Shown here: one piece after another, positions 15,720-48,611 of the stretch
Numbering within the stretch: position 1 is the first letter of the stretch
How the letters are laid out: each line of letters begins with the position of its first letter
Origin: Verrucomicrobiota bacterium JB024
GTDB lineage: Bacteria > Verrucomicrobiota > Verrucomicrobiia > Opitutales > Cerasicoccaceae
DNA length: 55,291 nucleotides
Direction of reading: 5' to 3'
NCBI GenBank assembly: GCA_030673825.1
Contig: JAUTCS010000129.1
Span: 1 to 55,291, forward strand
Notes under the pieces: model-generated
Told to the model about the DNA's origin: nothing
What the model saw: only the letters and a program-made list of their open reading frames with translations
Database searches by the model: none
Made by a program: the position numbers and the translations under genes

Positions 15720-16892
15720 CTAGAGCGTCCCACCGGGGGCGGCCTGCGCCACGCCCTGCCCGCATGAACTGCGCACAACGAGACGGGGCTTGAGCAGGGT
15801 GTGCAGGGCGCGCGTCTGAGAGGCGGCCCCGCGCAGGCGCGAGATAAGCTGGCGGGCGGCCTCACGGCCGATCTCCTCTGCCGGCTGGTCAATACTGCTC
15901 AAATGCAGACCGGAAACAGAAAAAAGCTCGCGATCCAGGTTGTCGTAGCCGACGAGGCTCACGTCCTTGGGAACCTCCAGCCCGGCTTCGCGCAAAGCCA
16001 CATAGGCGCCATAGGCCATGTTGTCCTGCATCGTGACGATACCGTCAAACGGGCACCCTTCCCCACTCGCGTCCTTAAGCCACTTGGCGACCGCTTTGTG
16101 GGCCGTTTCCTCGTGGCCGCTGACGCCGATATCCGCTTCGTATGCCGGCATCCGCTTCAGACCATAGTCCTGCATGGCCATGATAAAGCCTTTACGACGC
16201 TCACGGTCGGGCACTCCCGCATCCGCCCCGAAGGCCAGCAGCGCAAGTCGACGACACCCAGCAGCGATCATATGCTGGGTCGCAGTGTACATACCCGCGA
16301 AGTTGTCTGAAAGGACGCTACAGACCTCCATATCGGGGATGTAGCGGTCGATCATCACCAGCGGGATAGACTGCTTGTCGATCTCTTGAATAAGGTTGCG
16401 AAACTCAGCGCTCTGTAGATTGCACGTATCCGGGTAAACGGCGATGCCACCCAACCCGCTCTCCACCATGCGACGCAACTGCTTGATCTGGTAGTCGGGA
16501 TCTCCGTGGTCATGGGCCACCGCAATATGGAAGCCCGACTCGGCCGCAAAGGACTCAGCCCCCTGCACGATACGGGAAATCAGGGGATTCTCGACCGTAG
16601 GGACCACCAGACCGATAATCTGCTGGCTGACACCGTCCATCGGAACGGGCGCCTGCACCTCACGCACCAGCCAGGTCCCCCCGCCACGCCGTGTGTTCAA
16701 AAAGCCTTCGCGGTGGAGCGGCTCCATGGCCCGCCGCAGCGTGACCCGGCTTACCCCGAGCGAAGTGCACAGCTGCCGTTCGGCGGGCAGCCGGTCACCG
16801 ACCTCCATACCGGAGAGCTGACGTTGAATTTCCCGGGCCACGCGCGCGTAAACCGGAAGAAGCTCTTCTGAATTGGTACTCATGGTCGCCAT
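15720..16892 (-). CDS. GntR/LacI chimeric repressor (AraR-type)
   Basis: 390 residues from ATG 16892 (MATMSTNSEE); ATG 16883 is an alternative. An N-terminal GntR winged helix (about 15-80: YARVAREIQRQLSGMEVGDRLPAERQLCTSLGVSRVTLRRAM) is fused to a LacI/periplasmic-binding effector domain (about 95-375: IIGLVVPTVENPLISRIVQGAE, LVGYDNLDRELFSVSGLHLSSIDQP). This architecture is that of AraR-like repressors, which bind TTTGTA..TACAAA-type palindromes and are released by a sugar. A perfect palindrome TTGGTATACCAA lies 12 bp before its start, so autoregulation is likely. It is divergent from the GH38 mannosidase. Confidence 0.9.
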   Translation of the reverse strand: MATMSTNSEELLPVYARVAREIQRQLSGMEVGDRLPAERQLCTSLGVSRVTLRRAMEPLHREGFLNTRRGGGTWLVREVQAPVPMDGVSQQIIGLVVPTVENPLISRIVQGAESFAAESGFHIAVAHDHGDPDYQIKQLRRMVESGLGGIAVYPDTCNLQSAEFRNLIQEIDKQSIPLVMIDRYIPDMEVCSVLSDNFAGMYTATQHMIAAGCRRLALLAFGADAGVPDRERRKGFIMAMQDYGLKRMPAYEADIGVSGHEETAHKAVAKWLKDASGEGCPFDGIVTMQDNMAYGAYVALREAGLEVPKDVSLVGYDNLDRELFSVSGLHLSSIDQPAEEIGREAARQLISRLRGAASQTRALHTLLKPRLVVRSSCGQGVAQAAPGGTL

Positions 16893-16903
16893 CTTAATGG
16901 ACT

Positions 16904-16915
16904 TTGGTATACCAA
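16904..16915. promoter_or_regulatory. Perfect palindrome TTGGTATACCAA at the regulator start
   Basis: A 12-bp perfect palindrome lies 12 bp upstream of the GntR/LacI gene start, in the divergent region with the mannosidase. Its half-sites match those at 10225-10248, 15461-15488 and 24817-24836. A separate AT-rich dyad GATTTTT-N5-AAAAATC lies at 16991-17009. Confidence 0.55.
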
Positions 16916-17022
16916 TCCTCCCAATCTTGGTCAAGTCCGCTTTTCTACTTTCATCCAAATTACGCAAGACGCAGATATTCAGCAATAAATGATTTTTAAA
17001 TAAAAAATCCACAAATCGACGC

Positions 17023-17036
17023 TTTGTATTTACAAA
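17023..17036. promoter_or_regulatory. Palindrome TTTGTA-TT-TACAAA before the mannosidase
   Basis: Perfect 6-bp arms closely resemble the known AraR operator core of Bacillus. It overlaps the spacer expected upstream of a TATATT -10 box (17043-17048), a good place for repression of the alpha-mannosidase gene. Confidence 0.5.
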
Positions 17037-17079
17037 TAGACTTATATTCCCCATGTTAATGCGAGTAACCCTTTTGACC

Positions 17080-29521: not shown

Positions 29522-30922
29522 CTAATCCTGCTCCTGGATCGGGTCTTTCTGCTTGTTTTTGAGCTGCCACCAGGCCACGCCGTTGACGAGGCGCTTGTCC
29601 AGGAACGACGGCGGCGGCAGGCCCTTGTCCCACGTGTCAAAGGCCGCGACCATGGCGTTGAACCTCTCCGGCATCTGCTTGGAGAGGTCCTTGCTTTCGG
29701 CGGGGTCCTCGACCACGTTGTAAAGCTTCCACTGTGGGTTCATGTCGCCGCCGACGCCGTTTTTGAGAATCTTGTAATCACCCTCGCGCATCGCGCACAT
29801 GGTCGGTCCGTAGCGCCAGTACAACCGCTCGTGCGGCAGCGCCTCGGTCTGCCCGCGCATCAGCGGTAGCAGGTTGACCCCGTCCAGTGCGTGCGGCCCG
29901 GAATGCTCCGTACCGGCGGCGGCCAGCGCCGTCGGAAAGATGTCCAACGCGCTCACCGGCTGATCGAAGCGTGCACCCTTTTCCAAGTTGCCGTCCGACC
30001 ACTGAACAAGGAACGGCGTGCGGATGCCACCCTCGTAGAGCTCGTACTTGCCGCCACGGAATGGCGCGTTGGACGCCCACTTGCGCGGGAACCCGCCGTT
30101 GTCGCTGAGGAAGAAAATCAGTGTGTTGTCGAGGAGGCCGTTCTTTTTAAGCGCGTCGAGCACGAGGCCGACATTGACGTCCATCGCGCTGGTCATAGCC
30201 GCGTACTTGCGGCGGCTCGGGTCCTTGATCGACTTGTACGGTTCCAGGTACTTCTCCGTCGCCTCCAGCGGCAGGTGCACGGCGCTGAACGCCAGGTACA
30301 GGAAGAACGGATCGTCGCGGTTCGTGTCGATAAACGCCGCCGCCTTCTCGCCGAAGTCGTCCGTCATGTATTGAGTTTTCGGTACAGTCTCGTTGTTGTG
30401 CCAGATGACGCCGGGACGGTCCGGGAAGTACGGCAGCGAGCCGTTGACGAAGCCGTAAAACTCGTCGAAGCCCTTCTGGTTCGGAAGGAACTCGGGCTTC
30501 TCTCCGAGGTGCCACTTACCCACGATACCCGTGGAGTAGCCCGCCTGCTTGAGCTCCTGGCCCAGTGTCGGTCGGTCGGTCGGAATGCCGAAGTCGCGGC
30601 TCCCGCCGGGACCGTCGAGCGTCTGCACGCCAAAGCTCTCCTGATACGTGCCCGTCATCAAGCCCATCCGGCTGGGCAGGCAGACCGGTGCGGTGATATA
30701 CGCGTTGGTGAAGCTGCACCCGTTCGCGGCGAGGCTATCTATGTTAGGCGTCTGAATCTCCGGAGCGCCGGTCAGCGATAGGTCCGCGTAGCCCAGGTCG
30801 TCCGAGACGATCACGATGATATTCGGGCGGTGAGCTGCGGAGTCGGTTTGCGCCTGAACGGCTGCGGTGGTGCCGAGTGTTATGGCTGCGGCGCAAAGGT
30901 TGACGGTGAGTTTTCCAAACAT
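29522..30922 (-). CDS. Exported arylsulfatase-like sulfatase (S1 family)
   Basis: 466 residues with a signal peptide (about 1-25, ending AAVQAQ). The N-terminal RPNIIVIVSDDLGYAD gives the metal ligands D41 and D42. The formylglycine site is C81-L-P-S-R85...MTG. FFLSDNGG supplies the late metal ligands. GAGAGAG-type Shine-Dalgarno (GAGAGG) lies 6-11 bp before ATG 30922, one of the few clear ones in the window. The enzyme should act outside the cytoplasmic membrane on polymeric or oligomeric sulfated glycan. It lies 131 bp downstream of the small secreted protein; a direct repeat of ACCGAAT lies in that gap (about 31018-31041), where its promoter may be. Confidence 0.93.
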   Translation of the reverse strand: MFGKLTVNLCAAAITLGTTAAVQAQTDSAAHRPNIIVIVSDDLGYADLSLTGAPEIQTPNIDSLAANGCSFTNAYITAPVCLPSRMGLMTGTYQESFGVQTLDGPGGSRDFGIPTDRPTLGQELKQAGYSTGIVGKWHLGEKPEFLPNQKGFDEFYGFVNGSLPYFPDRPGVIWHNNETVPKTQYMTDDFGEKAAAFIDTNRDDPFFLYLAFSAVHLPLEATEKYLEPYKSIKDPSRRKYAAMTSAMDVNVGLVLDALKKNGLLDNTLIFFLSDNGGFPRKWASNAPFRGGKYELYEGGIRTPFLVQWSDGNLEKGARFDQPVSALDIFPTALAAAGTEHSGPHALDGVNLLPLMRGQTEALPHERLYWRYGPTMCAMREGDYKILKNGVGGDMNPQWKLYNVVEDPAESKDLSKQMPERFNAMVAAFDTWDKGLPPPSFLDKRLVNGVAWWQLKNKQKDPIQEQD

Positions 30923-31053
30923 TTTTCCTCTCCCGTTAATCGGTCTTCGGGGATGATAGTTACTCTGCCTCCGGCCATACGCATTCGCAAATGCAAAGCC
31001 GGACGGGAACTGGTGATTCGGTTATCGAATTCGGTAGCTGCGGGCGCAGGGCC

Positions 31054-35746: not shown

Positions 35747-37618
35747 TCAATACGGCATCAGACGGGCGGGGACTTCCGTGTTGTCCTCGACTACGACCGT
35801 CGATTTCGGGTTCTGGGAGTCCACGTCGATCAAGCCGTCAGTGGTATTCTTCATCACCAGAATCGAGGCCGCGGAAACGTTTGGACGGATCGTGCCGACG
35901 ATGGCGTCCATCCAGCCGTAGATGGCGTTGTCCTCGACCAGAGCGAAGAACGGGCAGGTGGCCTCGATCGAGATCGCGGGCATATCCTCGCTCACGGCGC
36001 GCTCCTCGGCCTCGGCGCCAGGATCGTCGTCGGTGAAGAGGAAGTACGGCACCTTGTTGGCCTCGGAGGCGGCCTGCTGCGCGTCCGTGTTGGAGACGGG
36101 AGCCTCCTTGCGGAAGACGTTGCCCTTGATGATGGCCATGTCCGAGTCCTTCGGCATGATGTTGATCGTCAGCGGGTCGAAGGGCAGGCGCGAGACGAAC
36201 TCGTTGTCCATGACGGTGAGCTTGCCGGGGCCGAACTTGTTGACGCGGCCGTTGATGAACTTGTTACCCGCGACGGTGACGTCCCGTCCGGCCTGGATCG
36301 AGATGTCCACTGTGCGCGTGGAGAGCTCGTTGGAGAAAAGATTGCCGCTGATCATGACGGTGCCCGCGCCGTACTTGTCCTCGGGATTCGAGGGGCCATG
36401 GTGGAGCCGCACGAAGGGCCCGAGGTACTTGGCGGGGCTGTCCCACCAGCTCCACTCAGCCTCCCACGGCTCGTGACGGACCATGATCAGGTTACCCGTG
36501 ATGAGGAGCTTCTCGCCCCAGTACATGGAGACAATGCCGCCCGCGGTCGAGTTGATGGAGATGTTGTTGGAAAAGACGAGGTTCTCGCCGCCCTCGCTGC
36601 CGTAGGCGTAGTCGGCGATGAAGCGGGCGACGTTGCTGTCGATGATGACCTGGCGGCCCTTGTTACCCCAGGCCAGCGTGTTACCGTACTCGGCGTAGTT
36701 GTTCTGCACGAGCACGTCGAATGAGCCGGAAGTGTGCGGGTTGTAACCCGGCTCGCCAGCCTTGACTTCGCGGTTGGCCACGGTGGAGGAGCCGCGCGGC
36801 AGGTTCTTCTTGCGCGAGGGGTCGGGCGAGCCGCCGAACCAGTTGACCTGGTACTTCACGTCGCGCGACCAGTTATCGTGGTGACGGAGGTTTTCCGAGC
36901 CTTCGAGAAACTTCGTCATGTAGTTGCCACTGACCATGTGGTTGCCGCGCACCGTGACGTTGGCCGAGTTGCTGGCATGCATCATCGCGTGCAGCCGGAA
37001 GCCCTTGGAGTTCTCGAGCACGAGATCGCGGCTGTTAATCGCGAAGACCAGACACTGCGACTTGTAGTAGCCCATGTGGCTGTACTTCTCGGACGGGTCA
37101 GTGCCGTCCACGTTGAGCAGGCGACCACGGCGCTTGCGGTTTTCCAGCGGGACGGTGCCGCGTTCGTCGGTGTTGCCCACGTCGGCATCGGAGACGACGA
37201 GGTTGGCCACGCCGTCGGCGTAAACCAGGTTTAAGACGACGGTGTCCTTCAGGTCCTTGCCGCCGTCGGCGAAATCATAATGCAGCCCCTCGATACGCAC
37301 ATCGTCACCAGTGACGACGAACTGGTTCTGCTCGACGATCTTGGAAGCGACCGGGTGGATGACTGCCTCCGGGTCGAAAACCAATGTGTGGTTGCCCGGG
37401 ATCTTAACCGTGCCGAGATTATACGTCCCGGCGGGGAAGTAGAGCATGCCCGGCCCCTTGTCCAGAGCCCGCTGCACCGCCTCCGTGTTATCGGTGCCAG
37501 TGCCGGGCGTAACGCCCAGAGTGCTGACGTTGACCTGGGCTTCGGCGGAGGCCGTCAGGAGCCCGGCCAGCAGCAGTGCCCGGCCGATATTTACGAGAGA
37601 GGGTGTCATTGGCTTCAT
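35747..37618 (-). CDS. Secreted right-handed beta-helix protein (pectate lyase superfamily fold)
   Basis: 623 residues from ATG 37618; the frame opens with TTG at 37633. A signal peptide covers about 1-23 (GRALLLAGLLTASAEAQ). VNVSTLGVTPGTGTDNTEAVQ and GMLYFPAGTYNLG form the N-terminal cap typical of pectate-lyase/GH28-like beta-helices. Repeated strands such as ANVTVRGNHMVSGNYM, VIIDSNVARF and NLVFSNNISINS build the helix. It may be a polysaccharide lyase, hydrolase or binding protein; catalytic residues cannot be assigned by eye. No terminator is visible after its stop. It has its own upstream region of about 170 bp before the terminator of the next gene. Confidence 0.78.
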   Translation of the reverse strand: MKPMTPSLVNIGRALLLAGLLTASAEAQVNVSTLGVTPGTGTDNTEAVQRALDKGPGMLYFPAGTYNLGTVKIPGNHTLVFDPEAVIHPVASKIVEQNQFVVTGDDVRIEGLHYDFADGGKDLKDTVVLNLVYADGVANLVVSDADVGNTDERGTVPLENRKRRGRLLNVDGTDPSEKYSHMGYYKSQCLVFAINSRDLVLENSKGFRLHAMMHASNSANVTVRGNHMVSGNYMTKFLEGSENLRHHDNWSRDVKYQVNWFGGSPDPSRKKNLPRGSSTVANREVKAGEPGYNPHTSGSFDVLVQNNYAEYGNTLAWGNKGRQVIIDSNVARFIADYAYGSEGGENLVFSNNISINSTAGGIVSMYWGEKLLITGNLIMVRHEPWEAEWSWWDSPAKYLGPFVRLHHGPSNPEDKYGAGTVMISGNLFSNELSTRTVDISIQAGRDVTVAGNKFINGRVNKFGPGKLTVMDNEFVSRLPFDPLTINIMPKDSDMAIIKGNVFRKEAPVSNTDAQQAASEANKVPYFLFTDDDPGAEAEERAVSEDMPAISIEATCPFFALVEDNAIYGWMDAIVGTIRPNVSAASILVMKNTTDGLIDVDSQNPKSTVVVEDNTEVPARLMPY

Positions 37619-37788
37619 GGGATGTTTTTTCAAGGGTATTCGTTTTCGTGCGCATGCACAAGCTGGGGCCGAATATTGAGCCAGAGGCTGGCCGCAGCGG
37701 CGCTGGAAAGGAATGGATAAAGAACAGTTGGGCTATCCCCTCTGGGAGATATCTAAAGTTAGAAAAACGTTATTTCAGCTCAATCTTT

Positions 37789-37844: not shown

Positions 37845-39314
37845 CTAGCGGCGCGCGCGGCGACGCAGGTAAACAAGGCCGATCACGGCCAGCCCCGCCA
37901 AGGCTGCGGTAGAGGCAGGCTCGGGGATGAACATGACACCAGCGACCGTGGCGTCGTTGCTGAAGTCGCTCAGGTCCCAGGCATAGTAGCCGGTCTCTGC
38001 GCCGGCCTCCATGGAGACGACCACGGTGTAGCCGGACTCGGTGGTGGTGGAAGCGACGATGCCATTGCTGGTCAGATAATTAACATAATCGGCGATGCTC
38101 ATGCCCGACCCGGCGTCAACGTTGAGATAGATATCTACGTTGGAACCGTTGGTCATACCCGTCATGATGACGTAGCCGATAGCGGCGGGGCCGAAGGTAG
38201 CGGCCTCGCCCGCGGCGATCGAGCCCTGCTGGGCAGCGCCGTTGAGGCTGAGCTGGAGCGCGTCGCGAGTGCCGCCACTAAGGGTGACCACGGCGACGTT
38301 CCACAGCGAGCTGTTCGGCAGCGTGCTGAGGTTGTTGGTGATGTTGCCGGTGTTCGCTTCGACGAGGTTGAACGTGTTGCCGGTGGTCAGTGTCATACCG
38401 CCGTTAAGATTCGCCTCAAGCGTGCCTTCGAGCGTCGCGGTACCCGTGCCGGTGAGGTTGACCTTGCTCACGCCACCGTTATCCAGCGTGTAGCTGAGAG
38501 TGGTGAAGCTCTTGTCTGAAGCGCGCATGGCGAGGTTGCCGCCGACGTTCACATTACTGCCAGAGCCGACGAGCTTAAAGGTCGAATAGACGGTGCCGAT
38601 GCCACTCGTGCTGTCGGCATTACCCATCGTGACGTTACCCGTCACGGAGAGATCGCCACCGGTCAGGTTGTACTCGGCTGTGTTGACGAAGTCACTGAAA
38701 GTCCCTCCATAACGCATGCTTCCGATGTCTAGGGAGCCGACCGTGGCGGTCCCACCCGATTGGTTAAAGATGCCCGTGGAGGTCGGAGCCGTGCTGTGAG
38801 CCAGCGAAAGCAATCCGGCAACATTGAAGGTGCCGGCATTCAGGTTGTAGGTACCCGAACCACCGCGGACCGTTGAGCTGAATCCACCTAAGAGAAAATT
38901 CAACTGAGCATCAAAACTGCCGCCGTTCTGCGTGACGATCGCCGTCGAGCCCAAAGACACGCCGACACCGCTAGCCGCCGCGCTCCCAGTCGTGATGCTG
39001 GCGCCATCGCCAAAGGTCAGCGAACTTGTGGAATTCTCCACGGTTCCCAGTCGCAGGAAACGCACCGACACGTCGCTGGAAAGGGTCACGTCTTCCAAGT
39101 TAATGTAGGTGTTGACGGAGGTCGCATTCGGCACGGAGTCGAGGCTCCAGTTTCCGGCGTCCTCCCAGGCGTTGCTTTCGCTGCCGTCCCAGAAGTTGTC
39201 GGTCGTCTGGGCTTGGGCGGCGGGGATGAGGGATACGCCAGCCAAAGCGGCGGCGAACAACCCGGCTCGACCGGGCAGGCCCGTCAGGGGGTTTGAGTGT
39301 TTCGTTAGGCGCAT
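37845..39314 (-). CDS. PEP-CTERM beta-strand repeat protein (anchored paralogue)
   Basis: 489 residues from ATG 39314, preceded by AAAGGAA at good spacing. A signal peptide ends LIPAAQA. The chain begins NFWDGSESNAWEDAGNWSLDSVPNA, the usual opening of autotransporter-associated beta-strand proteins. It continues with Gly/Ser/Thr-rich beta-helix repeats and a C-terminal domain ending WDLSDFSNDATVAGVM. Then comes the PEP-CTERM anchor: FIPEPASTAALAGLAVIGLVY then LRRRARR. It is paralogous over nearly its full length to the next gene (39666-41009), which lacks the anchor. It is the most distal member of the AraC-box cluster. Confidence 0.85.
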   Translation of the reverse strand: MRLTKHSNPLTGLPGRAGLFAAALAGVSLIPAAQAQTTDNFWDGSESNAWEDAGNWSLDSVPNATSVNTYINLEDVTLSSDVSVRFLRLGTVENSTSSLTFGDGASITTGSAAASGVGVSLGSTAIVTQNGGSFDAQLNFLLGGFSSTVRGGSGTYNLNAGTFNVAGLLSLAHSTAPTSTGIFNQSGGTATVGSLDIGSMRYGGTFSDFVNTAEYNLTGGDLSVTGNVTMGNADSTSGIGTVYSTFKLVGSGSNVNVGGNLAMRASDKSFTTLSYTLDNGGVSKVNLTGTGTATLEGTLEANLNGGMTLTTGNTFNLVEANTGNITNNLSTLPNSSLWNVAVVTLSGGTRDALQLSLNGAAQQGSIAAGEAATFGPAAIGYVIMTGMTNGSNVDIYLNVDAGSGMSIADYVNYLTSNGIVASTTTESGYTVVVSMEAGAETGYYAWDLSDFSNDATVAGVMFIPEPASTAALAGLAVIGLVYLRRRARR

Positions 39315-39481: not shown

Positions 39482-39643
39482 TTAATGACAACTGGAAAGG
39501 GTTGCAATAAACTGTCTGGATCGTATCCGATCCGGTAGGTGTTTAAAAACACGTTGGTGTTTCCTGCGGTAGCAGGCGTAACGGTATTTCCAGTAATCAT
39601 TCCCCGTCAGGCGATGCTTTTCGAGGTTGTTGGGGGTATTCAT
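39482..39643 (-). CDS. Possible 53-residue small ORF (doubtful)
   Basis: In the 351-bp gap between the paralogues, an ATG frame (MNTPNNLEKHRLTGNDYWKY onward) encodes a basic peptide rich in Arg, His, Tyr and Lys, ending ATLSSCH. It has no Shine-Dalgarno. The AraC-type box at 39523-39537 lies inside it, which argues that the region is regulatory rather than coding. The composition is protein-like enough to record. Confidence 0.2.
   Translation of the reverse strand: MNTPNNLEKHRLTGNDYWKYRYACYRRKHQRVFKHLPDRIRSRQFIATLSSCH
39523..39537 (+). promoter_or_regulatory. AraC-cluster box A: GTATCCGATCCGGTA
   Basis: A 15-bp box about 210 bp upstream of the anchored paralogue, identical in all 15 bases to the box at 45381-45395. 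Consensus over the cluster is GTATCCG-N4-GGTA. Confidence 0.55.
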
Positions 39644-39665
39644 GGGGGTATTGAGATTAAGTTAT

Positions 39666-41009
39666 TTATCGGCTGATTCCGGTCACGGATAAGCCAGGTG
39701 CCCGCACGGCGAGGTCCCAGGCAAGGGTCAGGGTTGGTGCCGATGCCGTCCCCGAAAGGGTCAATGCATTCGTTTGATCATCAGCAACTTCAACGCCGAA
39801 ACCTGCTTCTTTAAGGCTCGTGACCCATGCGTCCAACCCGTCCGCGGAATCGGCTTGCACGGACAGCGTCGTCTGGTACGGCTCACCGGCTGTAAGCCCC
39901 GTCAGAACGGCATAGCCCGTGGTGCTGGCGGCAAAGACCGCCGTCTCGCCCGCGCCGAGGCTAACCAACCGCGCCTGCGGGTTCAGGGTCAGGCGCAAAG
40001 CGCTGCGTTTTTTGTCAATGGCCTTGGACTCCAGGCTCCACAGCGAGGGGGCCGGAAGCGTGGAAAACTCGCCGCTGACTTTCCCGTTGCCCGCCTCAAG
40101 GAGGCTCAGGCTGTCTCCGGCGAAGGCGGTCAACCCGGCAGGCATTTCCAGCTGGAGCGTTCCCGCCAGGGAGACGTCCGCCGTATTCACCGCACGGAGC
40201 GTACCGGTGCCGGTACTGTCCAAAATGTAGCTGAGCGTAGGGTGGCTCTTGTCGTGGGCGTTAAAGACCACATTGCCGCGCACGAGAATGTCCGTCCCCG
40301 CACCGATGCGCAGCATCGCGTTGACAGAGCCATTACCGTCTGTGCTGGCCGAGCCGATGGTAAGCTCCTTGATGACCCGCAGGCTGCCACCGGTGATCAC
40401 GTATTCGGCCTCATTGACCGGGGATCCTTTCATGCCGAGGTAACGCCCCGAGCCAATGAGCAGTCCCCTCAGTTCGACTTCCCCACCCTGCTGCTCAAAG
40501 CGTGAGACCGAGGAGCCCGTGAGGTTGCCGCCCAGGACCAGGTCCCCGCGATAAACGCGCAGGGTCCCGTCCAGCAGTGTGTAGGCGCCCTTGGCGTCCC
40601 CGCTGGCGCGAAAACCGCCAATGTATACATTGTTGCCGACGACGACGCTGCCGCCCTTCTGGAGAATCGTCCCGGAGCTGCCGTCACCGGCTCCCAGCCG
40701 GGAGTTTCCTGCCGATCCAATTTCTAGCGTGCCGCCGGGCTCCACCGTCAAAGAGGCGCTTTTGCCCGCTTCGCAGCCGATCTGAAACAGCCGCGCGTTC
40801 GCGTAAGTGTTGAGCTCGACCTCGCCTTGTGGGATGGAGACGTTTTTCGCGCCATCGGGCAATCCGCCGCTCCACTCGGTCGCAGTGGACCAGGGACCAT
40901 TTGCGCCACTCCAGACCGTCTCGCTCACAGCCGATGCCACGACCGGCACCAGCAGCGCGAGGGCTACGGTGCAGACTTTCGAGGTTCGCTTGAGATCAAA
41001 AAAATTCAT
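39666..41009 (-). CDS. Secreted beta-strand repeat protein without anchor (paralogue)
   Basis: 447 residues from ATG 41009 (MNFFDLKRTSK), which gives a normal signal peptide ending VVASA. An ATG at 41063 directly after CAACCTCAACCCC would add 18 residues. The chain opens ETVWSGANGPWSTATEWSGGLPDGA, then beta-helix repeats. Aligned motifs with the 37845-39314 product include EAEYVITGGSL/AEYNLTGGDL, HDKSHPTLSYILD/SDKSFTTLSYTLD and FSTLPAPSLW/LSTLPNSSLW. It stops at GISR, exactly where the paralogue continues into its FIPEP anchor, so it is probably released or held by partners. Confidence 0.75.
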   Translation of the reverse strand: MNFFDLKRTSKVCTVALALLVPVVASAVSETVWSGANGPWSTATEWSGGLPDGAKNVSIPQGEVELNTYANARLFQIGCEAGKSASLTVEPGGTLEIGSAGNSRLGAGDGSSGTILQKGGSVVVGNNVYIGGFRASGDAKGAYTLLDGTLRVYRGDLVLGGNLTGSSVSRFEQQGGEVELRGLLIGSGRYLGMKGSPVNEAEYVITGGSLRVIKELTIGSASTDGNGSVNAMLRIGAGTDILVRGNVVFNAHDKSHPTLSYILDSTGTGTLRAVNTADVSLAGTLQLEMPAGLTAFAGDSLSLLEAGNGKVSGEFSTLPAPSLWSLESKAIDKKRSALRLTLNPQARLVSLGAGETAVFAASTTGYAVLTGLTAGEPYQTTLSVQADSADGLDAWVTSLKEAGFGVEVADDQTNALTLSGTASAPTLTLAWDLAVRAPGLSVTGISR

Positions 41010-41258
41010 TAATCGCAGGGTACTTGTGGCGTGGGCCCAGGCCCCGGTCAGGGGGACTCGCATGGGGTTGAGGTTGCTTGCGCAGGACCATCCTCCCGAC
41101 ACACGGTTGAGTTCTACTTGCGCCACATTATTCATCATTTCAAGGGTGAACGCCGGTTGTTAGACACTCGGCACAACGATTTATAACGTATAGCAAAAAC
41201 GGTTTAGCAAAGGCAGCTTCGAGTCAAACGGAAAGCCGTGTATTTTAAGGTGACTCCA

Positions 41259-41273
41259 GTATCCGATGTGGTA
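41259..41273 (+). promoter_or_regulatory. AraC-cluster box B: GTATCCGATGTGGTA
   Basis: 13 of 15 bases match box A. It lies in the gap between the AraC gene end (41345) and the anchor-less paralogue (41009), about 190-250 bp upstream of the latter's possible starts. CGGATATTTTCGGATC follows at 41281 and may hold further weak half-sites. Confidence 0.5.
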
Positions 41274-41344
41274 TCTCAGGCGGATATTTTCGGATCAAAA
41301 CGCTCCATTTTGACGCCCGCGATACCAGCGGATAGCGAGCGGGA

Positions 41345-42277
41345 CTAGACCTCGGAGCGAGCGCGGTACTCCTCCGGAGAGACGCCAGTGATCTGCTTGA
41401 AACGCCGGGAGAAGTACGGCTGGCTGCCGAAACCACACTCGAACGCGATCTCCTTGATCGAGGCGTTGCTGGTGATGAGCTGATGGCAGGCCTGCTCGAC
41501 AAGGTTGCGGGAGCGGAAGACCGTCGGCGTCACCCCGCACAGGCGCTTGAATTTTTTGCGAAAAGCCTGCTCGCCGAGGCCAAAGCTCTGCCCCAATTCG
41601 ACGAGGTCGAGCGGTTCCTCCGGCGAGAGCGCAATCAGCGCGGCGCGGGCGCGGTCCGCCCATTCGATGTTTTCGCTCAGCTTGGGTGTCTCCCAACTGG
41701 TGCACATCTCGGCGATCAGAGCCACCAACCTCCCGCTGTCACTGAGCGAGGGCTCCACCCCCACCCTGGCCAGAGGCAGGACGACCTCGTGGAAACGCTC
41801 CAGCCAGTACGGGATGCCGTGTGTCTCATTGGCCAGCGGGCGTACCGGTTGGTCCGGGTCGAGCAGGCCGGTGCCCATCCAGGCATCGAACAGCAGCCCG
41901 GAAAAGCTGATGTGGATCTCGTTCCAGGTCTGGCCCGCCTCCGGTCGGTACAGATGCCCCTGCCCCGGGAAAAGGCAGATAACGTCCCCGGCACGGACCC
42001 GGATGAGCTGCTCGTGCTGGTCGTCGGCGTACTCCCCCTCCCCGGCGTACACATAGGTCAGCCCGTAGGTGGTGAAGACACGCCGCTTCTCCTCCTGTCC
42101 CTGAAACTGCATCCCCCAATTGCCCTCGATCTGGAGACTGCGCCCGATCCACCCCGGATAGAGTGGATGAAACGACTCCATGATCAACCAGTAGTCCCGG
42201 GTCTGCCCGGCATTCGTACCGTTTTGCCTGGTGAATTTACCGCCATGGAGGCGACAGAGGGTTTCCAACGCAGACAT
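41345..42277 (-). CDS. AraC-family transcriptional regulator
   Basis: 310 residues. The N-terminal cupin-like sugar-sensing domain covers about 1-190 (TYVYAGEGEYADD, VRAGDVICLFPGQGHLYRPE). Two helix-turn-helix motifs fill the C-terminus: LDLVELGQSFGLGEQAFRKKFKR and ASIKEIAFECGFGSQPYFSRRFKQ, then TGVSPEEYRAR. Such proteins usually activate neighbouring sugar genes by binding direct repeats next to -35. It lies centrally in the region 4 cluster, and GTATCCG-N4-GGTA boxes occur in its own upstream region and those of its neighbours, so it is the prime candidate to bind them. Confidence 0.92.
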   Translation of the reverse strand: MSALETLCRLHGGKFTRQNGTNAGQTRDYWLIMESFHPLYPGWIGRSLQIEGNWGMQFQGQEEKRRVFTTYGLTYVYAGEGEYADDQHEQLIRVRAGDVICLFPGQGHLYRPEAGQTWNEIHISFSGLLFDAWMGTGLLDPDQPVRPLANETHGIPYWLERFHEVVLPLARVGVEPSLSDSGRLVALIAEMCTSWETPKLSENIEWADRARAALIALSPEEPLDLVELGQSFGLGEQAFRKKFKRLCGVTPTVFRSRNLVEQACHQLITSNASIKEIAFECGFGSQPYFSRRFKQITGVSPEEYRARSEV

Positions 42278-42418
42278 GGAGAGAGATTACCAGATAAGAG
42301 ATATACCGACAAGTTTTAATACCCAGCAGTATCCGTAATGGACGTATTCCCCTTTGCAGGTCAGCCCGGCGAGGCAACGCAAACACGATTCTCGACTCCA
42401 GCCTCACAAATCCAGGCT

Positions 42419-42433
42419 AACCGGATCGGATAC
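42419..42433 (-). promoter_or_regulatory. AraC-cluster box C: GTATCCGATCCGGTT
   Basis: 14 of 15 bases match box A, on the strand of the AraC gene and about 140 bp before its start. A half-site GTATCCG followed by TAATGG lies at 42329-42341, nearer the start. Both lie in the 198-bp gap 42278-42475; autoregulation is likely. Confidence 0.5.
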
Positions 42434-42475
42434 TTCCAGCAACCAAGACACGACCACGCGTGCTGCCCGGCGTCC

Positions 42476-44014
42476 TCAGGCAACGGCGCAGGGACGATGC
42501 TGCTGATACCAGGCCAGGAGCTGCTGACGGAGCTTTTCGCGACAGGGCGCCAGCGTGGTGTCTTCCCAGCGGTTGTCGAGCTCCCGCGGATCGGCCCTCA
42601 GGTCGAAAAGCTGCCCGTCAAAGCCCTTCTCTGGCTCGCCCGGCGGGAAGTACAGATTGAGCTTGTACCGTCCGTCAAAAATCATGGCCCCGTAGATCGG
42701 AGGGTCGAAGTAGCCGCCCTGGTCGCAAATGCCGGTCCCGTGGTACACGCAGACGCAGGTCTCACGGACCGGGTCTCCGGGGACCGCCAGCAGGTCGTAG
42801 GAGTCGGGCATGTGTTCCCCCAGCCAGCCGGAGGAAATCCCGGCTGCGTGCAGGAGTGTCGCGGTGAGGTCGTGGAGCTGCGCCGGGGCCTCGCTGACCA
42901 GCCCCGGGCGGATGCGACGCGGCCAGCGCAGCAGCAGTGGCACGCGTACCGAGGGTTCGTAGAAATACGCCCCCTTGGCCAGCAACGCGTGGTCCCCGAG
43001 CATGTCCCCATGGTCGCTGCAAAAGACGACCAGTGTGTTGTCCGCCAATCCCTCGGCCTCGAGGGCGTCGAGCACACGTCCCACCTCGGCATCAAGCAGG
43101 GCGATCGAGGCGAGGTAATCGACGCGGTCGCGCTGGATCGCTTCCTCCGTATAAAAATCCTCCACCGGCGCACGGGCGGGCGCGGCGGCGTCCGCCTCCT
43201 TCTTATCGCCCCAGGCGGGCCCCTTCGTCGTCCCCGCAAGCATATAGCCGTGCGCGTGCTCGCGCCGCACGGCCTCGGGCAGCGCTTCCATCCCTACCCT
43301 GTCCTTGATGACGCGCGGGATCTTCTCCACGGTGACCATTTCCCGGAATTCCGCCGGATAGTCGCGGTACGGGTTGTGCGGGTCGAACACGCTCATCTTA
43401 CAGAAAAACGGGCGGTCCCTGTCGCGCCCACGGATGTAGTCGATGGTGCGCCCGGCGGCCCAGTGCGTCATATGGCACACCTGCGGCACGTCCTGCACCT
43501 GGCGGCCATTTTCCAGCAACTCGCGGTAAAAGGCCGGGTGATTCGCCTCCAGCCAACGCCCGTAGGCCTGCCCAGGATGGTCCAGCAGCAGGCTCGGCTC
43601 TGGGCACCACTCGTACACCTCGAAGCCGTCGTTGGGCTTGCGGTGCTCAAGCTCGTGCCGGATCGCGCTCACGTGGAGCTTGCCAAAGAGCGCCGTCTGG
43701 TACCCCTGCTCGCGCAGGTGCTGCGGAAAGAGCGGCATCTCCGGCGCCATTACGTCGTAAAGCCGCTCGACGCCGTGCACCGGCACGGGCTGCCCCGTCA
43801 TCAGGCTGGCCCGCGAGGGCGTGCAGATCGGGTTCGAGCTGTAGCAGCGCTCGAAACGCATCCCCTCGCGCCCCAGTCGGTCGAGGTTGGGCGTGTCGAT
43901 CCCTTCGCACCCATAGCACGAGAGACTGTCCCAGCGCTGCTGGTCCGTCATGATCAGCAGGATGTTCGGGCGGGCGTCCACAGTGGACACAGGATCGGGA
44001 AAAGTTTGGTTCAT
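42476..44014 (-). CDS. Sulfatase (S1 family), cytoplasmic
   Basis: 512 residues from ATG 44014; the frame opens earlier with TTG. No signal peptide. RPNILLIMTDQQRWDSLSCYG provides the first metal ligands (D24, Q25). The formylglycine site is C64-T-P-S-R68...MTG, and VVFCSDHGDMLGDH gives the late ligands. It is a choline-sulfatase/N-sulfoglucosamine sulfohydrolase-like branch of S1 by appearance; the sugar substrate is unknown. It lies 61 bp downstream of the BNR-fold gene on the same strand, probably one transcript driven from the 45210-45613 region with its two boxes. Desulfation would then precede or accompany GH65 phosphorolysis in the cytoplasm. Confidence 0.92.
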   Translation of the reverse strand: MNQTFPDPVSTVDARPNILLIMTDQQRWDSLSCYGCEGIDTPNLDRLGREGMRFERCYSSNPICTPSRASLMTGQPVPVHGVERLYDVMAPEMPLFPQHLREQGYQTALFGKLHVSAIRHELEHRKPNDGFEVYEWCPEPSLLLDHPGQAYGRWLEANHPAFYRELLENGRQVQDVPQVCHMTHWAAGRTIDYIRGRDRDRPFFCKMSVFDPHNPYRDYPAEFREMVTVEKIPRVIKDRVGMEALPEAVRREHAHGYMLAGTTKGPAWGDKKEADAAAPARAPVEDFYTEEAIQRDRVDYLASIALLDAEVGRVLDALEAEGLADNTLVVFCSDHGDMLGDHALLAKGAYFYEPSVRVPLLLRWPRRIRPGLVSEAPAQLHDLTATLLHAAGISSGWLGEHMPDSYDLLAVPGDPVRETCVCVYHGTGICDQGGYFDPPIYGAMIFDGRYKLNLYFPPGEPEKGFDGQLFDLRADPRELDNRWEDTTLAPCREKLRQQLLAWYQQHRPCAVA

Positions 44015-44075
44015 GGTCGTCAGGGGTAGAAAATACGTTTTTTCCAAATGCGCTAAAAAAGCGTTGATCTTGGGC

Positions 44076-45209
44076 TCAGTCAGTCATGTCCGCGCAGAGG
44101 CGGCGGAAGTCCTTGAACAGGTGGTAGGTGATGCGGTTGGAGTCGTGGAAGCGGACCGCTCCGCGCCAGGCCGTACGCACGAGGGCAATGATGTCGTCCC
44201 CATCGAACTGCCAGTCGGCGTACTGGAAGCCGGTCAGGCGCAGGGAGTCTTTCTGGCTCAGGCCGGACTCGTCCACGACCATGGCCTTGAGCACCTTCCA
44301 CTCACGCAGGTCGCGCGAAGCTACAAGCGAGAGCACGTTGCGTTGGCTGGCCTTGCCGGGGACGGTGTTGTTGTTGCCGAGGGTAAAGTACAGGCCGGTC
44401 TGCGGGTCGCGCCGGATGGTGAACTTGTGCGTGCCTCCGGGCAGCCGGATGATGTCCCGGTCGTAATCGAAAGAGACCTCGCTGCCGTCGGCGGAAACCT
44501 TGACCATGGCCGCGTAGTCGGAGTGCGGCTCGGTGCTCATGCGCAGGATGTCCCAGAGCTGGCCGTCCGGTCCGGCGACCATGTTGCCCTCCAGAAAGCC
44601 CGGCCCGGTTTCGCCCCAGTCAGAGGGCACGCGCTTCGGGTCAAAGGGCAGCTTGTTGCTCATCGTCCAGCTGGAGGCCTTGAGCAGGTCGGCATTCGCG
44701 TCGGCGGAGATGACAAAGGCCTGGAAGCCGGAGGGCCACAGGGCGGTCACATTGTCCTCGTAAGCGCGGAAGATACGCCCCTCGTGCACGATGACCGGCG
44801 TCGGCGCGCAGTGGTAGTTCGGTGGCTCGGCCGCCTCACCGCCCTGAAAGAGCAGCCCGCGGTCGGCGTCGAAGGGAAAGGTCCAGGTAAAGCCGCCATC
44901 ATCGCTGCGGCGGATCACGATCGAGCCGTAGCGGCGGTTGCACCCGAGCATGTACAGCGCCCCCTTGTGCAGGAAAAGCGAGCTCCAGAAGGCCCCAATC
45001 AACTGCGAGCAGTTCACCCAGGTCGCACCGTCGTCCTCCGAGCGGTACACACTGCACATGCGCATCAGCCCGTCGTCAAAGCCCTGTTGCTCCGCGTAAA
45101 AATAATCGTGCGCGGCAACCAGCGTGCCGTCCTCCAGGCGGATAATGGCGGGACTGCCCAAAAACGTTTTACTGCGCTCGGGCATGTACTTGACTTCAGT
45201 GTAAACCAT
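44076..45209 (-). CDS. BNR/sialidase-fold six-bladed propeller protein
   Basis: 377 residues, no signal peptide. Asp-box motifs SEDDGATW and SDDGGFTW mark a sialidase-type propeller. GSPAIIRLEDGTLVAAHDY, CAPTPVIVHEGRIFRAYED and LTGFQYADWQFDGDDIIALVRTAWRG are typical of the exo-alpha-sialidase-like proteins common in Verrucomicrobiota and Planctomycetes sugar loci. True sialidase activity is not implied: the Arg triad cannot be verified by eye. Cytoplasmic, so it would act on imported oligosaccharide. CAACCCC lies 12 bp before the start. It is first in the unit with the sulfatase and divergent from GH65. Confidence 0.8.
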   Translation of the reverse strand: MVYTEVKYMPERSKTFLGSPAIIRLEDGTLVAAHDYFYAEQQGFDDGLMRMCSVYRSEDDGATWVNCSQLIGAFWSSLFLHKGALYMLGCNRRYGSIVIRRSDDGGFTWTFPFDADRGLLFQGGEAAEPPNYHCAPTPVIVHEGRIFRAYEDNVTALWPSGFQAFVISADANADLLKASSWTMSNKLPFDPKRVPSDWGETGPGFLEGNMVAGPDGQLWDILRMSTEPHSDYAAMVKVSADGSEVSFDYDRDIIRLPGGTHKFTIRRDPQTGLYFTLGNNNTVPGKASQRNVLSLVASRDLREWKVLKAMVVDESGLSQKDSLRLTGFQYADWQFDGDDIIALVRTAWRGAVRFHDSNRITYHLFKDFRRLCADMTD

Positions 45210-45380
45210 AACGAATGCGAAGGGGTTGAAAGGGGAAGCTGGGTACCGCTGCTGTGGAAGATTCCGATCCGAATGGACGATACATCAGAGTCAATTCCCA
45301 GTCAAACAGACTTGCAAATACGTTATAGCAGATTTTTTGCCTGCATAAAGACTCGAATATGGCAGATGCCGGTAACCCTG

Positions 45381-45395
45381 GTATCCGATCCGGTA
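45381..45395 (+). promoter_or_regulatory. AraC-cluster box E: GTATCCGATCCGGTA
   Basis: Identical to box A in all 15 bases. It lies 172 bp upstream of the BNR-fold gene and 219 bp upstream of the GH65 gene, in their shared 404-bp divergent region (45210-45613). Confidence 0.6.
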
Positions 45396-45442
45396 CGATC
45401 ATGAATAATTCCGAGGGGGCATTCACGTCGCTATAGATAGAA

Positions 45443-45460
45443 GCGATTTTCTCAAATCGC
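45443..45460. promoter_or_regulatory. Palindrome GCGATTT-TCTC-AAATCGC in the divergent region
   Basis: An 18-bp dyad with perfect 7-bp arms lies between boxes E and F. The 13-mer GCGATTTTCTCAA is shared with 35326-35338 upstream of the giant pseudopilin. It could be a second regulator's site or a small hairpin. Confidence 0.4.
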
Positions 45461-45488
45461 AAACCATTACCAAATCGTTCAGCCCATT

Positions 45489-45503
45489 TACCACGGCGGA
45501 TAC
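45489..45503 (-). promoter_or_regulatory. AraC-cluster box F: GTATCCGCCGTGGTA
   Basis: It matches the seven leading and four trailing consensus bases on the minus strand. It lies about 20 bp upstream of where the -35 would be for the TATATT -10 (45546-45551) of the GH65 gene. That promoter has no good -35, as expected for activator dependence. Confidence 0.45.
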
Positions 45504-45613
45504 CACTAGGCACTTGTGAGAGTCGCAATCCTGACGCAGTATGCTTATATTTAACAGACCCGGCTTACGCCATCCCAACTCAACCTCTTCTCTCCCCACC
45601 CTTTTCCGCAACA

Positions 45614-47935
45614 ATGAATCCAACAGCCTCCAGCAACCCGTCCCTGTGGTCGGTCAGCGCCAACGCCTTCTGCGCCGACGACATCGAAAAGAACGGCAAC
45701 AAATTTCTCATTGGTAACGGCTACCTCGGCCTGCGCGGTACGCTGGAGGAGCACGGCCCCCGTCAGTTGGCGGCCTGCGTCATCTCCGGTTTATATGACC
45801 GGAACGGTGACCAATGGCGCGAGCCGGTCAACGCTCCGGTCGCCTTTGGGGTAAAGGTCAGCGCGGACGGCGTCCCCTGCTCTACCCTCGACGCCGATGT
45901 GGCCGCACACCGCCAATGGGTCGAACTGGACAAGGTGCTTCACCACCGCGAGACGACACTGCGCATTCCCGGGGGTAACGATATCGTGCTTTCCTCCAGC
46001 CGCTTCCTCAGCCTGGAAGACAAACACCTCGGCGTGCTGCGCTTCAGCGTCAGCGTCACCGCCCCCTGCGAACTTGTTATCGAAACCGGTATCGACGGGG
46101 ACATCTGGGACATCAACGGCCCGCACCTGACCAGCTTCCGCTCCGAGAGCGACGAGGACACGCTCACCCTGCACGCCCAGACCGGCGAGGCAGGTATCCC
46201 GGTCGTCGTGGCCACCGCTTTTCAGAGTGAAACCCTCTCCTCCCCTGAGATCGTCGCCACCGACAAGGGTATACGCCACCGCTATCACATCCAGGCCGAG
46301 GCCGGACGAACGTATTCATTTATCAAATACATCGCGGTGCACACCGGCGCGGACTCCCGTGATCCCGCCGCTGCCGCAGTCGCGACCCTCGCCGTGGCCA
46401 CCGCCTCGGGTGTCACGCAGCTACTCGACACCCACGCGCGCCTATGGGCCGAGCGCTGGCGTAACAGCGACGTGCAAATCGCGGGGGACGACGAGGCCCA
46501 GCTTGCCCTGCGCTACTCGATCTACCACTTGCTCATCGCGGCCTCCACCTCCGACCGTGCCTCCATCCCCGCACGCGGCCTGTCCGGCCAAGTCTACAAG
46601 GGCGCCATTTTCTGGGACACGGAGATATTCATGCTCCCGTTCTTCGACCACACACAGCCCGAGCTGGCCCGGCATCTGGTGCGCTACCGCTACCACACGC
46701 TCGACGGTGCCCGCCGCAAGGCCGCCGAGTACGGCTTCCGCGGGGCCTACTACGCCTGGGAGAGCCAGGAGAGCGGCGACGACGCCTGCACGCTTTTCAA
46801 CATCACCGACGTGCTCACCAACCGCCCCATGCGCACCTACTTCCGCGACAAGCAGGTACACATCAGCGCGGATGTGGCGCTGGCCACCTGGCGCCACTAC
46901 AGCCTGACCGGGGATGCCAGCGTCCTGATCGACGGCGGGGCCGAGGTCATCCTCGAGTGCGCCCGCTTCTTTACCTCCTACGCCTGGTACAAGCCCGAAC
47001 GCGACCGCTACGAGCTGCTCGATGTCGTCGGCCCGGATGAGTACCACGAGCGCGTGGATAATAACGCTTTTACCAGCGCAATGGCGCGGGCCACGCTCGA
47101 TATAGCCCTGAAAACGCTGGACCTGCTTGAGCGCGAACACCCGGCCTTTTGTGAGACACTGATCGAGCGCCTCGACTACTCGGCGAACCGTGCACGGGTC
47201 GCCGAGATGCGCGCCAAGCTCTTCGTCCCCGAGCCCGATCCGAAGACCCACCTAATTGAGCAGTTCAGCGGCTACTACAAGCTCGAGGACAACACCCCCG
47301 CCGCGCTCAAGGAACGCCTGCTCAATCCGAACGAGTACTGGGGCGGCGCCAACGGCATCGCCACCTGCACGCAGGTGCTTAAGCAGGCCGACGTCGTTCT
47401 CATGCTGCACCTTTTCTCCAGTGAATACGCCGAGCAGATCAAGGCCGCCAACTGGGACTACTACGAGCCACGCACCGAGCATGGCTCCAGCCTCAGCCCC
47501 TGCGTGTACGCGCTCGTCGCCGCCGAACTCGGCCGCACCGAATGGGCCTACAAATACTTCCTGCGCACCGCCACGATCGACCTCACCGGCAAGTCCAAGC
47601 AGTTCGTCGGGCCGCTCTACATCGGCGGCACTCACCCGGCCGCCAATGGCGGCGCCTGGATGGCCGCGGTCCTGGGCTTCGGCGGACTCCGTGCAAACGG
47701 GCAGGACGGCACCGTCTCAATCCTCCCGCAGCTGCCCCAGGCCTGGACGGGGCTGAGCTTCCGCTTCTGCCGCCACGGCCAGTGGTTCACTGTCACCATC
47801 GGCGAAACAGAGGTAACTGTCAGCGCCGACGCCGAAAACACCGCCCCGCAAGACTTTGAACTCGGTGGCGTCGCGCGCTCCTGCCCTCCCGGCAAGGTCG
47901 TGACCGTCACCCGCAACGCCATGGCTGCCCATTGA
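45614..47935 (+). CDS. GH65 disaccharide phosphorylase
   Basis: 773 residues, cytoplasmic. The layout is that of GH65 maltose/trehalose/kojibiose/nigerose phosphorylases: N-terminal beta-sandwich (about 1-270, with NKFLIGNGYLGLRGTLEE), helical linker, (alpha/alpha)6 barrel (about 310-690) with FWDTEIFMLPFF and the general acid E476 in VVGPDEYHERVDNNAF, HGSSLSP phosphate loop, and a small C-terminal sheet. It splits an alpha-glucoside with phosphate, inverting, to give beta-glucose 1-phosphate. The linkage specificity cannot be read. The gene is followed after 4 bp by beta-phosphoglucomutase, the enzyme needed for its product. Confidence 0.93.
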   Translation: MNPTASSNPSLWSVSANAFCADDIEKNGNKFLIGNGYLGLRGTLEEHGPRQLAACVISGLYDRNGDQWREPVNAPVAFGVKVSADGVPCSTLDADVAAHRQWVELDKVLHHRETTLRIPGGNDIVLSSSRFLSLEDKHLGVLRFSVSVTAPCELVIETGIDGDIWDINGPHLTSFRSESDEDTLTLHAQTGEAGIPVVVATAFQSETLSSPEIVATDKGIRHRYHIQAEAGRTYSFIKYIAVHTGADSRDPAAAAVATLAVATASGVTQLLDTHARLWAERWRNSDVQIAGDDEAQLALRYSIYHLLIAASTSDRASIPARGLSGQVYKGAIFWDTEIFMLPFFDHTQPELARHLVRYRYHTLDGARRKAAEYGFRGAYYAWESQESGDDACTLFNITDVLTNRPMRTYFRDKQVHISADVALATWRHYSLTGDASVLIDGGAEVILECARFFTSYAWYKPERDRYELLDVVGPDEYHERVDNNAFTSAMARATLDIALKTLDLLEREHPAFCETLIERLDYSANRARVAEMRAKLFVPEPDPKTHLIEQFSGYYKLEDNTPAALKERLLNPNEYWGGANGIATCTQVLKQADVVLMLHLFSSEYAEQIKAANWDYYEPRTEHGSSLSPCVYALVAAELGRTEWAYKYFLRTATIDLTGKSKQFVGPLYIGGTHPAANGGAWMAAVLGFGGLRANGQDGTVSILPQLPQAWTGLSFRFCRHGQWFTVTIGETEVTVSADAENTAPQDFELGGVARSCPPGKVVTVTRNAMAAH

Positions 47936-47939
47936 GCTG

Positions 47940-48611
47940 ATGAACCACCTGCCCGACTTCCTTACCACTGCCCGCGGCGCGCTCTTCGACCTCGATGGCG
48001 TGATCGTGGACACCGCCAAGTACCATTACCAGGCCTGGAAACGCCTGGCGAACGAACTGCGCTTCGACTTCACAGAGCTCGACAACGAGCGCCTCAAAGG
48101 TGTCAGCCGCATGCGTTCGCTCGACATCCTGCTGGAGATCGGAAAGTTCGATATCGGCGAGGCCCTGCGCGAGCGCATGAGCATCCTCAAGGACAACTGG
48201 TACGTCGAGTACATCAGCCGGATGAGCGAGGACGAAATCCTCTCCGGCGCCCGCGAGTACATCCAGTATCTGCGCTCACAGGGGGTCAAGACCGCCCTCG
48301 GTTCCGCCAGCCGTAACGCGCCCCTGATCCTTGAAAAACTCCGCATCACCGACCTCTTTGACGCCATCATCGACGGCAACTGCGTCACCCACGCCAAGCC
48401 CGATCCCGAAGTCTTCCTGCGCGGGGCCGAGGCTCTCGGATTGCCGCCGGAGTCGTGCGTCGTGTACGAGGACGCCGAAGCCGGCGTCGAGGCCGCCCAC
48501 CGCGCCGGCATGAAAGCCGTCGGTATCGGCACCGCCGAAGCCCTCCCCGAGGCGGACTTCATTGTCGCCAGCCTGGGCGAACTCCTCGGCGACCACGCCG
48601 CGGTGCTTTAA
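47940..48611 (+). CDS. pgmB: Beta-phosphoglucomutase
   Basis: 223 residues, HAD superfamily. The nucleophile D17 and acid/base D19 are in LFDLDGVIVDTA, followed by KYHYQAW and the cap-domain LKGVSRMRSLDILL typical of beta-PGM. GSASRNA supplies the phosphate-binding Ser, KPDPEVFL the Lys, and VYEDAEAGVEAA the Mg ligands. It converts beta-glucose 1-phosphate from the GH65 phosphorylase to glucose 6-phosphate for glycolysis. It starts 4 bp after the GH65 stop codon, so the two are translationally linked. The alternative reading as another HAD mutase is unlikely given the partner. Confidence 0.95.
   Translation: MNHLPDFLTTARGALFDLDGVIVDTAKYHYQAWKRLANELRFDFTELDNERLKGVSRMRSLDILLEIGKFDIGEALRERMSILKDNWYVEYISRMSEDEILSGAREYIQYLRSQGVKTALGSASRNAPLILEKLRITDLFDAIIDGNCVTHAKPDPEVFLRGAEALGLPPESCVVYEDAEAGVEAAHRAGMKAVGIGTAEALPEADFIVASLGELLGDHAAVL

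Follow-up and report, generated by a model that had tools for sequence, protein, structure and literature searches.

A 15-bp box around an AraC-family gene of Verrucomicrobiota bacterium JB024 as the probable half-site of a local activator regulon

Verrucomicrobiota bacterium JB024 carries an AraC-family regulator gene surrounded by copies of a 15-bp box on contig JAUTCS010000129.1, of which the stretch analysed here, hereafter the window, covers positions 1 to 55,291. We propose, with a probability of roughly 0.85, that the box is a half-site for a dimer of the AraC-family protein (41345-42277, minus strand), which would activate four transcription units in a ligand-dependent manner from a fixed distance to the promoter. 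It is comparative evidence that points to the adjacent AraC protein as the binder. The initial annotation of this DNA had read the box as the mark of a local regulon linking surface repeat proteins to sulfatase and phosphorylase genes. That reading is supported, as the box is local and recurs beside orthologous genes, and it can be refined in three respects: the box would be one half of a dimeric site, it would stand in fixed phase to a -35-like element, and the regulon would be somewhat larger.

Exact matches to the box, GTATCCGNNNNGGTA, are found at 39523-39537, 41259-41273 and 45381-45395 on the plus strand and at 45489-45503 on the minus strand, and a fifth copy at 42419-42433 (minus) ends in GGTT and carries one mismatch. 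Positions and strands of these five full copies are those first reported. The two copies said to be identical over all 15 bases are those at 39523 and 45381. The half-site also reported at 42329 (plus) exists as a two-mismatch match but was not recovered in congeners. The boxes at 39523 and 41259 would be the distal half-sites upstream of a PEP-CTERM repeat-protein gene (37845-39314) and of its anchor-less paralogue (39666-41138), respectively. The box at 45381 is the putative distal half-site of a BNR-sulfatase operon and the one at 45489 the putative proximal half-site of a GH65-pgmB pair, while the copy at 42419 lies upstream of the AraC gene in opposite orientation. Three elements had escaped the initial annotation: a sixth box, ATCTCTTATCTGGTA, immediately 5′ of the AraC start codon (42288-42302, minus), which is a candidate autoregulatory site; a half-site at 45468-45482 (minus), CTGAACGATTTGGTA, which would be the distal partner of the GH65 box at a distance of 21 bp and is also present in the congeners G054 and G039; and a candidate box at 31022-31036. 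No presumed transcription unit of the locus lacks a box, and the sequence flanking the copies differs from one to the next. Relative to the accepted genes all full copies are intergenic, as had been stated, and three of them overlap mechanical open reading frames (ORFs) that are not regarded as genes: 45381 lies within ORF 43950-45404 (plus) and 42419 within ORF 42338-44029 (plus), both opposite the sulfatase and BNR genes, and 45489 lies within a 110-codon ORF (45196-45528, minus).

With up to two mismatches, the window holds 22 matches versus 10.7 expected, a number that none of 100 shuffles reached. Genome-wide counts come from pattern searches only. The genome (4.6 Mb, 163 contigs) contains seven exact matches, four of them inside the 6 kb considered here, compared with two for the reversed pattern. 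The equally good matches whose scattering through the genome would have spoken against a local regulon thus amount to three exact copies outside the cluster (L013-L015), all intragenic, in ORFs of 581, 490 and 252 codons. Because the count at up to one mismatch is 84 versus 118 for the reversed control, the box is at background outside the local cluster.

AraC orthologues are encoded in the congeners G054 (85%) and G039 (80%), and gene order is common to all apart from the repeat proteins. The box stands beside orthologous genes in both, clearly at four places in G054 and partly in weaker form in G039, so that the conservation anticipated by the initial annotation is observed. In G054, one-mismatch boxes precede GH65, BNR and both repeat proteins. 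The places aligned with 39523 and 41259 read ATATCCGATTTGGTA (L021 11915, minus) and GTGTCCGAAACGGTA (L021 10027, minus), those aligned with 42419 and 42288 read GTGTCTTATCCGGTT and ATCTCTTATTTGGTA (L021 9011, plus), and the counterparts of the BNR box 45381 and the GH65 box 45489 lie at L021 5912 (minus) and L021 5805 (plus). In G039, a one-mismatch box precedes the pectate-lyase-like gene and weaker boxes precede GH65 (L022 5893, plus) and BNR (L022 6003, minus); the copy at 42419 is not recognisable there, the sequence at 42288 has diverged, no recognisable box precedes AraC in the alignment, and the 20-kb stretch has no match to the repeat proteins. Across the congener alignments most box columns are kept, between flanks that have diverged over much of their length. 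A matrix derived from seven sites, all of them in relatives, ranks 45381, 39523, 41259 and 42419 first to fourth among all window positions, followed by 31022 (fifth), a position inside GH65 (46077, sixth) and 45489 (seventh). G020, which belongs to the same genus, has no close AraC orthologue (best 51%), no GH65 match at E 1e-100 and no copy of TRTCCGANNNGGTA. Among 12 genomes searched at this threshold, namely nine AraC-bearing genomes and three others of the family, GH65 was matched only in the two congeners with a close AraC orthologue.

More distant orthologues were compared at ten loci (L023-L031 and L033) from the same order or Geminisphaera, with AraC proteins 49-58% identical and including two paralogues in the window's own genome (L026 and L027); one planctomycete locus (L034, AraC 43% identical) was added. 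A box following the general pattern TTGTC-N5-TGGTA is present in nine of the ten, with CTGTC at the start in L025 and CGGTA at the end in L033. It lies within about 300 bp of the AraC 3′ end in seven loci and 1-3 kb off in L024 and L026, and in three (L026, L028, L033) it is enclosed by a mechanical ORF, close to or right at one end of it. When a matrix was trained with one locus left out at a time, the box ranked first of about 40,000 positions in seven of nine loci, the exceptions being L025 and L030 with rank four; for L034, outside the training set, the two best matches are found upstream of AraC, at no more than about 150 bp. Over the eleven loci, TTGTCNGATTTGGTA has 5 matches with up to one mismatch versus 0 in each of ten random sets, 10 versus 1.0 with up to two, and 31 versus 12.7 with up to three. 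Relatives of the window's BNR protein are encoded in nine of the ten distant loci, and neither in L026 nor in L034. A set recurs in L027, L028, L031 and L033, made of AraC, the box, an N-methyl pseudopilin-like gene, a PATR repeat protein (with PEP-CTERM in Geminisphaera) and a protein of about 520 aa without Pfam family, with BNR nearby. At L027, on contig C125 of the window's own genome, the paralogous AraC gene (51%) has one in-frame TAA, the mark of a broken gene or of a sequencing error; it adjoins the BNR, pseudopilin-like, PATR and ~520-aa genes, and its own box is present. Extending the search to the whole phylum (387 genomes with five candidates scored per genome, E up to 1e-60) returned no additional AraC orthologue; the order search with which it compares covered 273 genomes with eight candidates scored in each.

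Read toward the gene, the box is TACC-N6-GAYA. Over 20 sites TACC and GAYA are conserved and the middle less so, a uniformity that is partly by construction because the boxes were picked by similarity. At exactly +46 from the box start, TTG is present in 10 of 13 promoters (nine distant and four in the window), compared with 0.38 on average across all offsets, and no offset exceeded 5 TTG in 2000 randomisations of the flanks. In the phase test, the element at +46 from box 39523 is a -35-like TTGTCA (39486-39491, minus), and the one at +46 from box 41259 is TTGACT (41222-41227, minus). The strong box of GH65 is preceded, at a distance of 21 bp, by a second half-site, TACCAAATCGTTCAG; counted from there, TTG stands at +46 in all three congeners with the locus, and in the window it belongs to the -35-like TTGTGA (45514-45519, plus). 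Because the +46 distance counts from this partner, the strong box would be the distal half-site at most promoters and the proximal one at GH65. The BNR promoter reads TTTATG at +46 and has a -10-like TATAAC at +68 (45322-45327, minus), with TATAAA at the same phase in G054. The direct repeat is clear at GH65 in three species, and TACC stands at +21 at BNR. A shift of -21 was the best of 92 in one test (z about 2.9) and the best over window and distant sites together (z 2.6).

Box and phase were also combined in scans of 246 genomes of the order. The strict pattern TACCNNATNNGAYA-N32-TTG has 9 matches in the ten AraC-bearing genomes, where it is present in seven, and 15 in the other 236. Eight of the nine are at AraC loci and the ninth is the second-sulfatase candidate in the window, 10 kb from AraC (30988-31036); the reversed strict pattern has 10 matches in the 246 genomes, none of them in AraC-bearing ones. 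In the ten AraC-bearing genomes the looser TACCNNANNNGAYA-N32-TTG matches 14 times; 10 of these matches fall in the window or at AraC loci, and the reversed form matches 3 times. Since the known sites supplied the patterns, matches at them are partly by construction, which does not apply to the scarcity elsewhere. Without the TTG, TTGTCNNANNTGGTA has 15 matches in 20 genomes, 7 of them away from known AraC loci; six of these stray matches lie inside ORFs and one outside (G066, L070), and none has TTG at +46. Another of the matches, an intergenic TACCACATCGGACAA in G050 (L063 4157), lies about 11 kb from the AraC orthologue and has TACC at +21 and no TTG at +46.

Several results count against the half-site reading. 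The strict pattern is missing from G117, G050 and G071, and box plus TTG with one mismatch is near background in G000, G054 and G039 (17 versus 15, 23 versus 15 and 18 versus 12 in the control); because of such counts, relaxed searches are unable to find further members. The 13 promoters are not fully independent, as the flanks of L027, L028 and L031 and those of L029 and L030 are visibly related, and TTG at +46 is missing in L026, in the BNR promoter and, strictly, in GH65. Outside GH65 and BNR the direct repeat is weak. The -21 shift comes third among the distant sites alone and falls outside the top five in the full-motif test on the window only. Among nine weaker candidate sites, TTG stands at +46 in one (L024 8092, plus), with two of the eight others off by one base. 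At L023 (G050), the only box beside AraC is one inside the AraC coding sequence. The candidate at 31022 was not found upstream of the second-sulfatase orthologues in G054 and G039 and is tentative for this reason. To these adds the share of box uniformity that comes from the choice of sites. The L024 site (8092, plus) lies downstream of the BNR gene of G129 and perhaps serves the next gene (6205-7830, minus).

The protein encoded at 41345-42277 combines an N-terminal sensing domain (AraC_binding, PF02311, 1.4e-09) with a C-terminal tandem helix-turn-helix (HTH) domain (HTH_18, PF12833, 1.8e-20; PF00165, 1.5e-19) in Pfam, and is the probable binder of the box. In the mechanism that we propose, the box would be the recognition sequence of one of its DNA-binding domains, with TACC as A-box and GAYA as B-box, spaced by roughly one turn of the helix and each serving one HTH motif. 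MarA places its first HTH motif into the A-box and the second into the B-box (PMC8279559). A second, usually weaker half-site would follow 21 bp downstream, and the -35-like TTG would come 46 bases from the start of the first; half-sites and TTG being so spaced, the dimer would sit directly upstream of RNA polymerase. Transcription would be activated when the N-terminal sensing domain is occupied, in four units: the anchor-less repeat protein, the PEP-CTERM repeat protein, BNR-sulfatase and GH65-pgmB. The pectate-lyase-like gene probably belongs to the PEP-CTERM repeat-protein unit. Together with the AraC gene itself it probably makes the regulon somewhat wider than first proposed, and the second sulfatase may perhaps be included as well. 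The boxes at 42288 and 42419, opposite in orientation, suggest autorepression of AraC. Activation rather than repression, binding as a dimer, the operon limits and the ligand are what we infer from this arrangement.

This design resembles characterised members of the AraC/XylS family. XylS is a ligand-dependent activator with an N-terminal sensing domain, and its second half-site overlaps the -35 element, whereas the second half-site here stops short of the -35-like element by about 10 bp. In E. coli, the araC gene adjoins its targets, as does the regulator gene described here. The XylS site at Pm, given as TGCA-N6-GGNTA-N6-TGCA-N6-GGNTA (PMC4514859), consists of two direct half-sites, each with an A-box and a B-box, in a 21-bp period, the arrangement proposed here; the A-box is TACC here and TGCA in XylS, and the second half-site is degenerate at most of the present promoters. 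The same source gives for MekR the site CACC-N5-CTTCAA-N6-CACC-N5-CTTCAA, which also has a 21-bp period and a near-identical A-box, but differs in B-box and in the genes served. With araI1-araI2 of E. coli AraC, bound by a dimer (PMC4760080, PMC4514859), the locus would share a stronger and a weaker half-site in adjacent position; sequence, promoter distance and target genes differ, and no looping site was identified here. CdhR of Pseudomonas aeruginosa (PMC5806209) has direct repeats upstream of its promoter, with GGTCGC half-sites and a 15-bp spacer and hence a 21-bp period, is called a class I activator and is proposed to inhibit its own gene; its half-site sequence is different, and it serves carnitine catabolism.

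Other readings of the box have to be weighed. A repressor usually binds sites on or downstream of the promoter, whereas the boxes of the target genes precede the -35-like element in fixed phase, the position from which an activator contacts the polymerase. This speaks against an AraC protein acting as a repressor at these sites, with half-sites that block or loop the promoters until the sugar is present. Such a role would agree with the opposite orientation of the boxes 42288 and 42419 beside the AraC start, and looping between distant half-sites is possible for AraC proteins (PMC4760080); we regard it as unlikely. It is still harder to accept that another regulator binds the box and that the AraC gene is merely one of its targets. 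A LacI-type gene (7334-8389) and a gene for a GntR regulator fused to a periplasmic-binding domain (15720-17306) are both in the window, and the two identical boxes contain a weak dyad, TATCCG..CCGGTA, as expected for dimeric LacI or GntR operators. However, the inverted-repeat symmetry of such operators is not kept: on inspection, no palindrome is seen in distant boxes such as TTGTCTGATTTGGTA, and the window boxes are palindromic only in part. Asymmetric half-sites in a 21-bp direct repeat follow the AraC/XylS design, and related boxes stay with AraC orthologues in other genera and in a second phylum, in surroundings that otherwise differ. We therefore give a LacI- or GntR-type binder little credence.

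Hardly any weight is left for a chance or composition-driven repeat, or for the relic of a recent intergenic duplication. The background-level genome count at one mismatch and the two identical copies would fit such an origin, but it is contradicted by the differing flanks, the recurrence across species, the +46 phase and the distribution of matches over the 246 genomes. The AraC dimer acting as an activator is thus the reading that we retain.

The genes placed under the box would serve polysaccharide use and the cell surface. The repeat protein at 37845-39314 (minus) ends in a PEP-CTERM-like tail, read from the sequence, and its paralogue at 39666-41138 (minus, 33% identity) lacks the anchor; neither has a Pfam family at a cut-off of 0.001. 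Pfam identifies a pectate-lyase-like beta-helix protein (35747-37633, minus), whose G039 orthologue is the one preceded by a box, a sulfatase (42476-44014, minus) and a GH65 glycoside phosphorylase or hydrolase (45614-47935, plus). The first gene of the presumed sulfatase operon encodes a BNR-repeat, sialidase-like protein (44076-45209, minus) with PF13088 below the curated cut-off. The nearest solved structures to the GH65 protein are 4ktp/4ktr (E 3e-155), the former of which we take to be a glucosylglycerol phosphorylase, followed by kojibiose phosphorylase 3wiq. The pgmB gene (47940-48611, plus) encodes a HAD protein in Pfam and a beta-phosphoglucomutase by NCBIfam TIGR01990, above cut-off. 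The LacI and GntR-type genes, the two other sugar-type regulators of the window, lie near GH38, heparinase-like and other carbohydrate genes.

A second sulfatase (29522-30922, minus) is a possible, lineage-specific member of the regulon. Its candidate box, TTATCGAATTCGGTA (31022-31036, plus), has CACC at +21 and TTGCGA at +46; read toward the gene, the box is TACCGAATTCGATAA, and the arrangement occupies 30985-31036. A different motif, GGTA-N17-GGTA, occurs within the AraC coding sequence, at 42217-42241 in the window and in the 5′ coding part at L023-L026, L029, L030 and L033. In eight of 13 AraC genes, GGT followed by A falls at the second glycine of GGK and at the glycine seven codons on, GGT being a minority codon (76 of 341 glycine codons). 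The motif may represent an intragenic operator, which we offer only as a lead.

The regulator and its sites also vary. Apart from the choice between F and Y, the first recognition helix (GEQA, F or Y, RKKFK) is the same in 14 aligned AraC proteins, and TACC is present at 20 of 20 sites, which had however been picked by box similarity. The helix of the second HTH motif varies, being SQPYF in the genus and SEFYF, SLFYF, SDYYF, SYYYF or others elsewhere, and GAYA has C as its third base in nine of nine distant sites and T in nine of 11 genus sites. A tentative account, to which we give somewhat less than even odds, is that regulator and operator form an ancient pair, present in several families of one verrucomicrobial order and in a planctomycete. 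The first HTH motif and TACC would be frozen in it, and the second HTH motif and the second box (mostly GATA-C/T versus GACAA) would change together. The regulon would have been swapped between pseudopilin/PATR-PEP-CTERM/~520-aa secreted and repeat-protein/sulfatase/GH65 loads, nearly always with BNR, and in several lineages the operator of the regulator's own gene would lie in its coding sequence, as GGTA-N17-GGTA placed at synonymous codon positions.

The type of switch is ordinary and the kind of regulator well known, yet the regulon itself appears to be undescribed. To our knowledge, no AraC-family operator has been worked out in Verrucomicrobiota, and the open-access literature yielded no paper on such an operator, as judged partly from titles among the matches listed. 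A simple ruler, made of a half-site, 21 bp and a -35 element at 46, would predict which genes are switched on jointly. Little is understood of what PEP-CTERM/PATR surface proteins do; the regulon would link them to enzymes that act on a sulfated or glucosylated substrate and may offer a handle on finding the inducing sugar.

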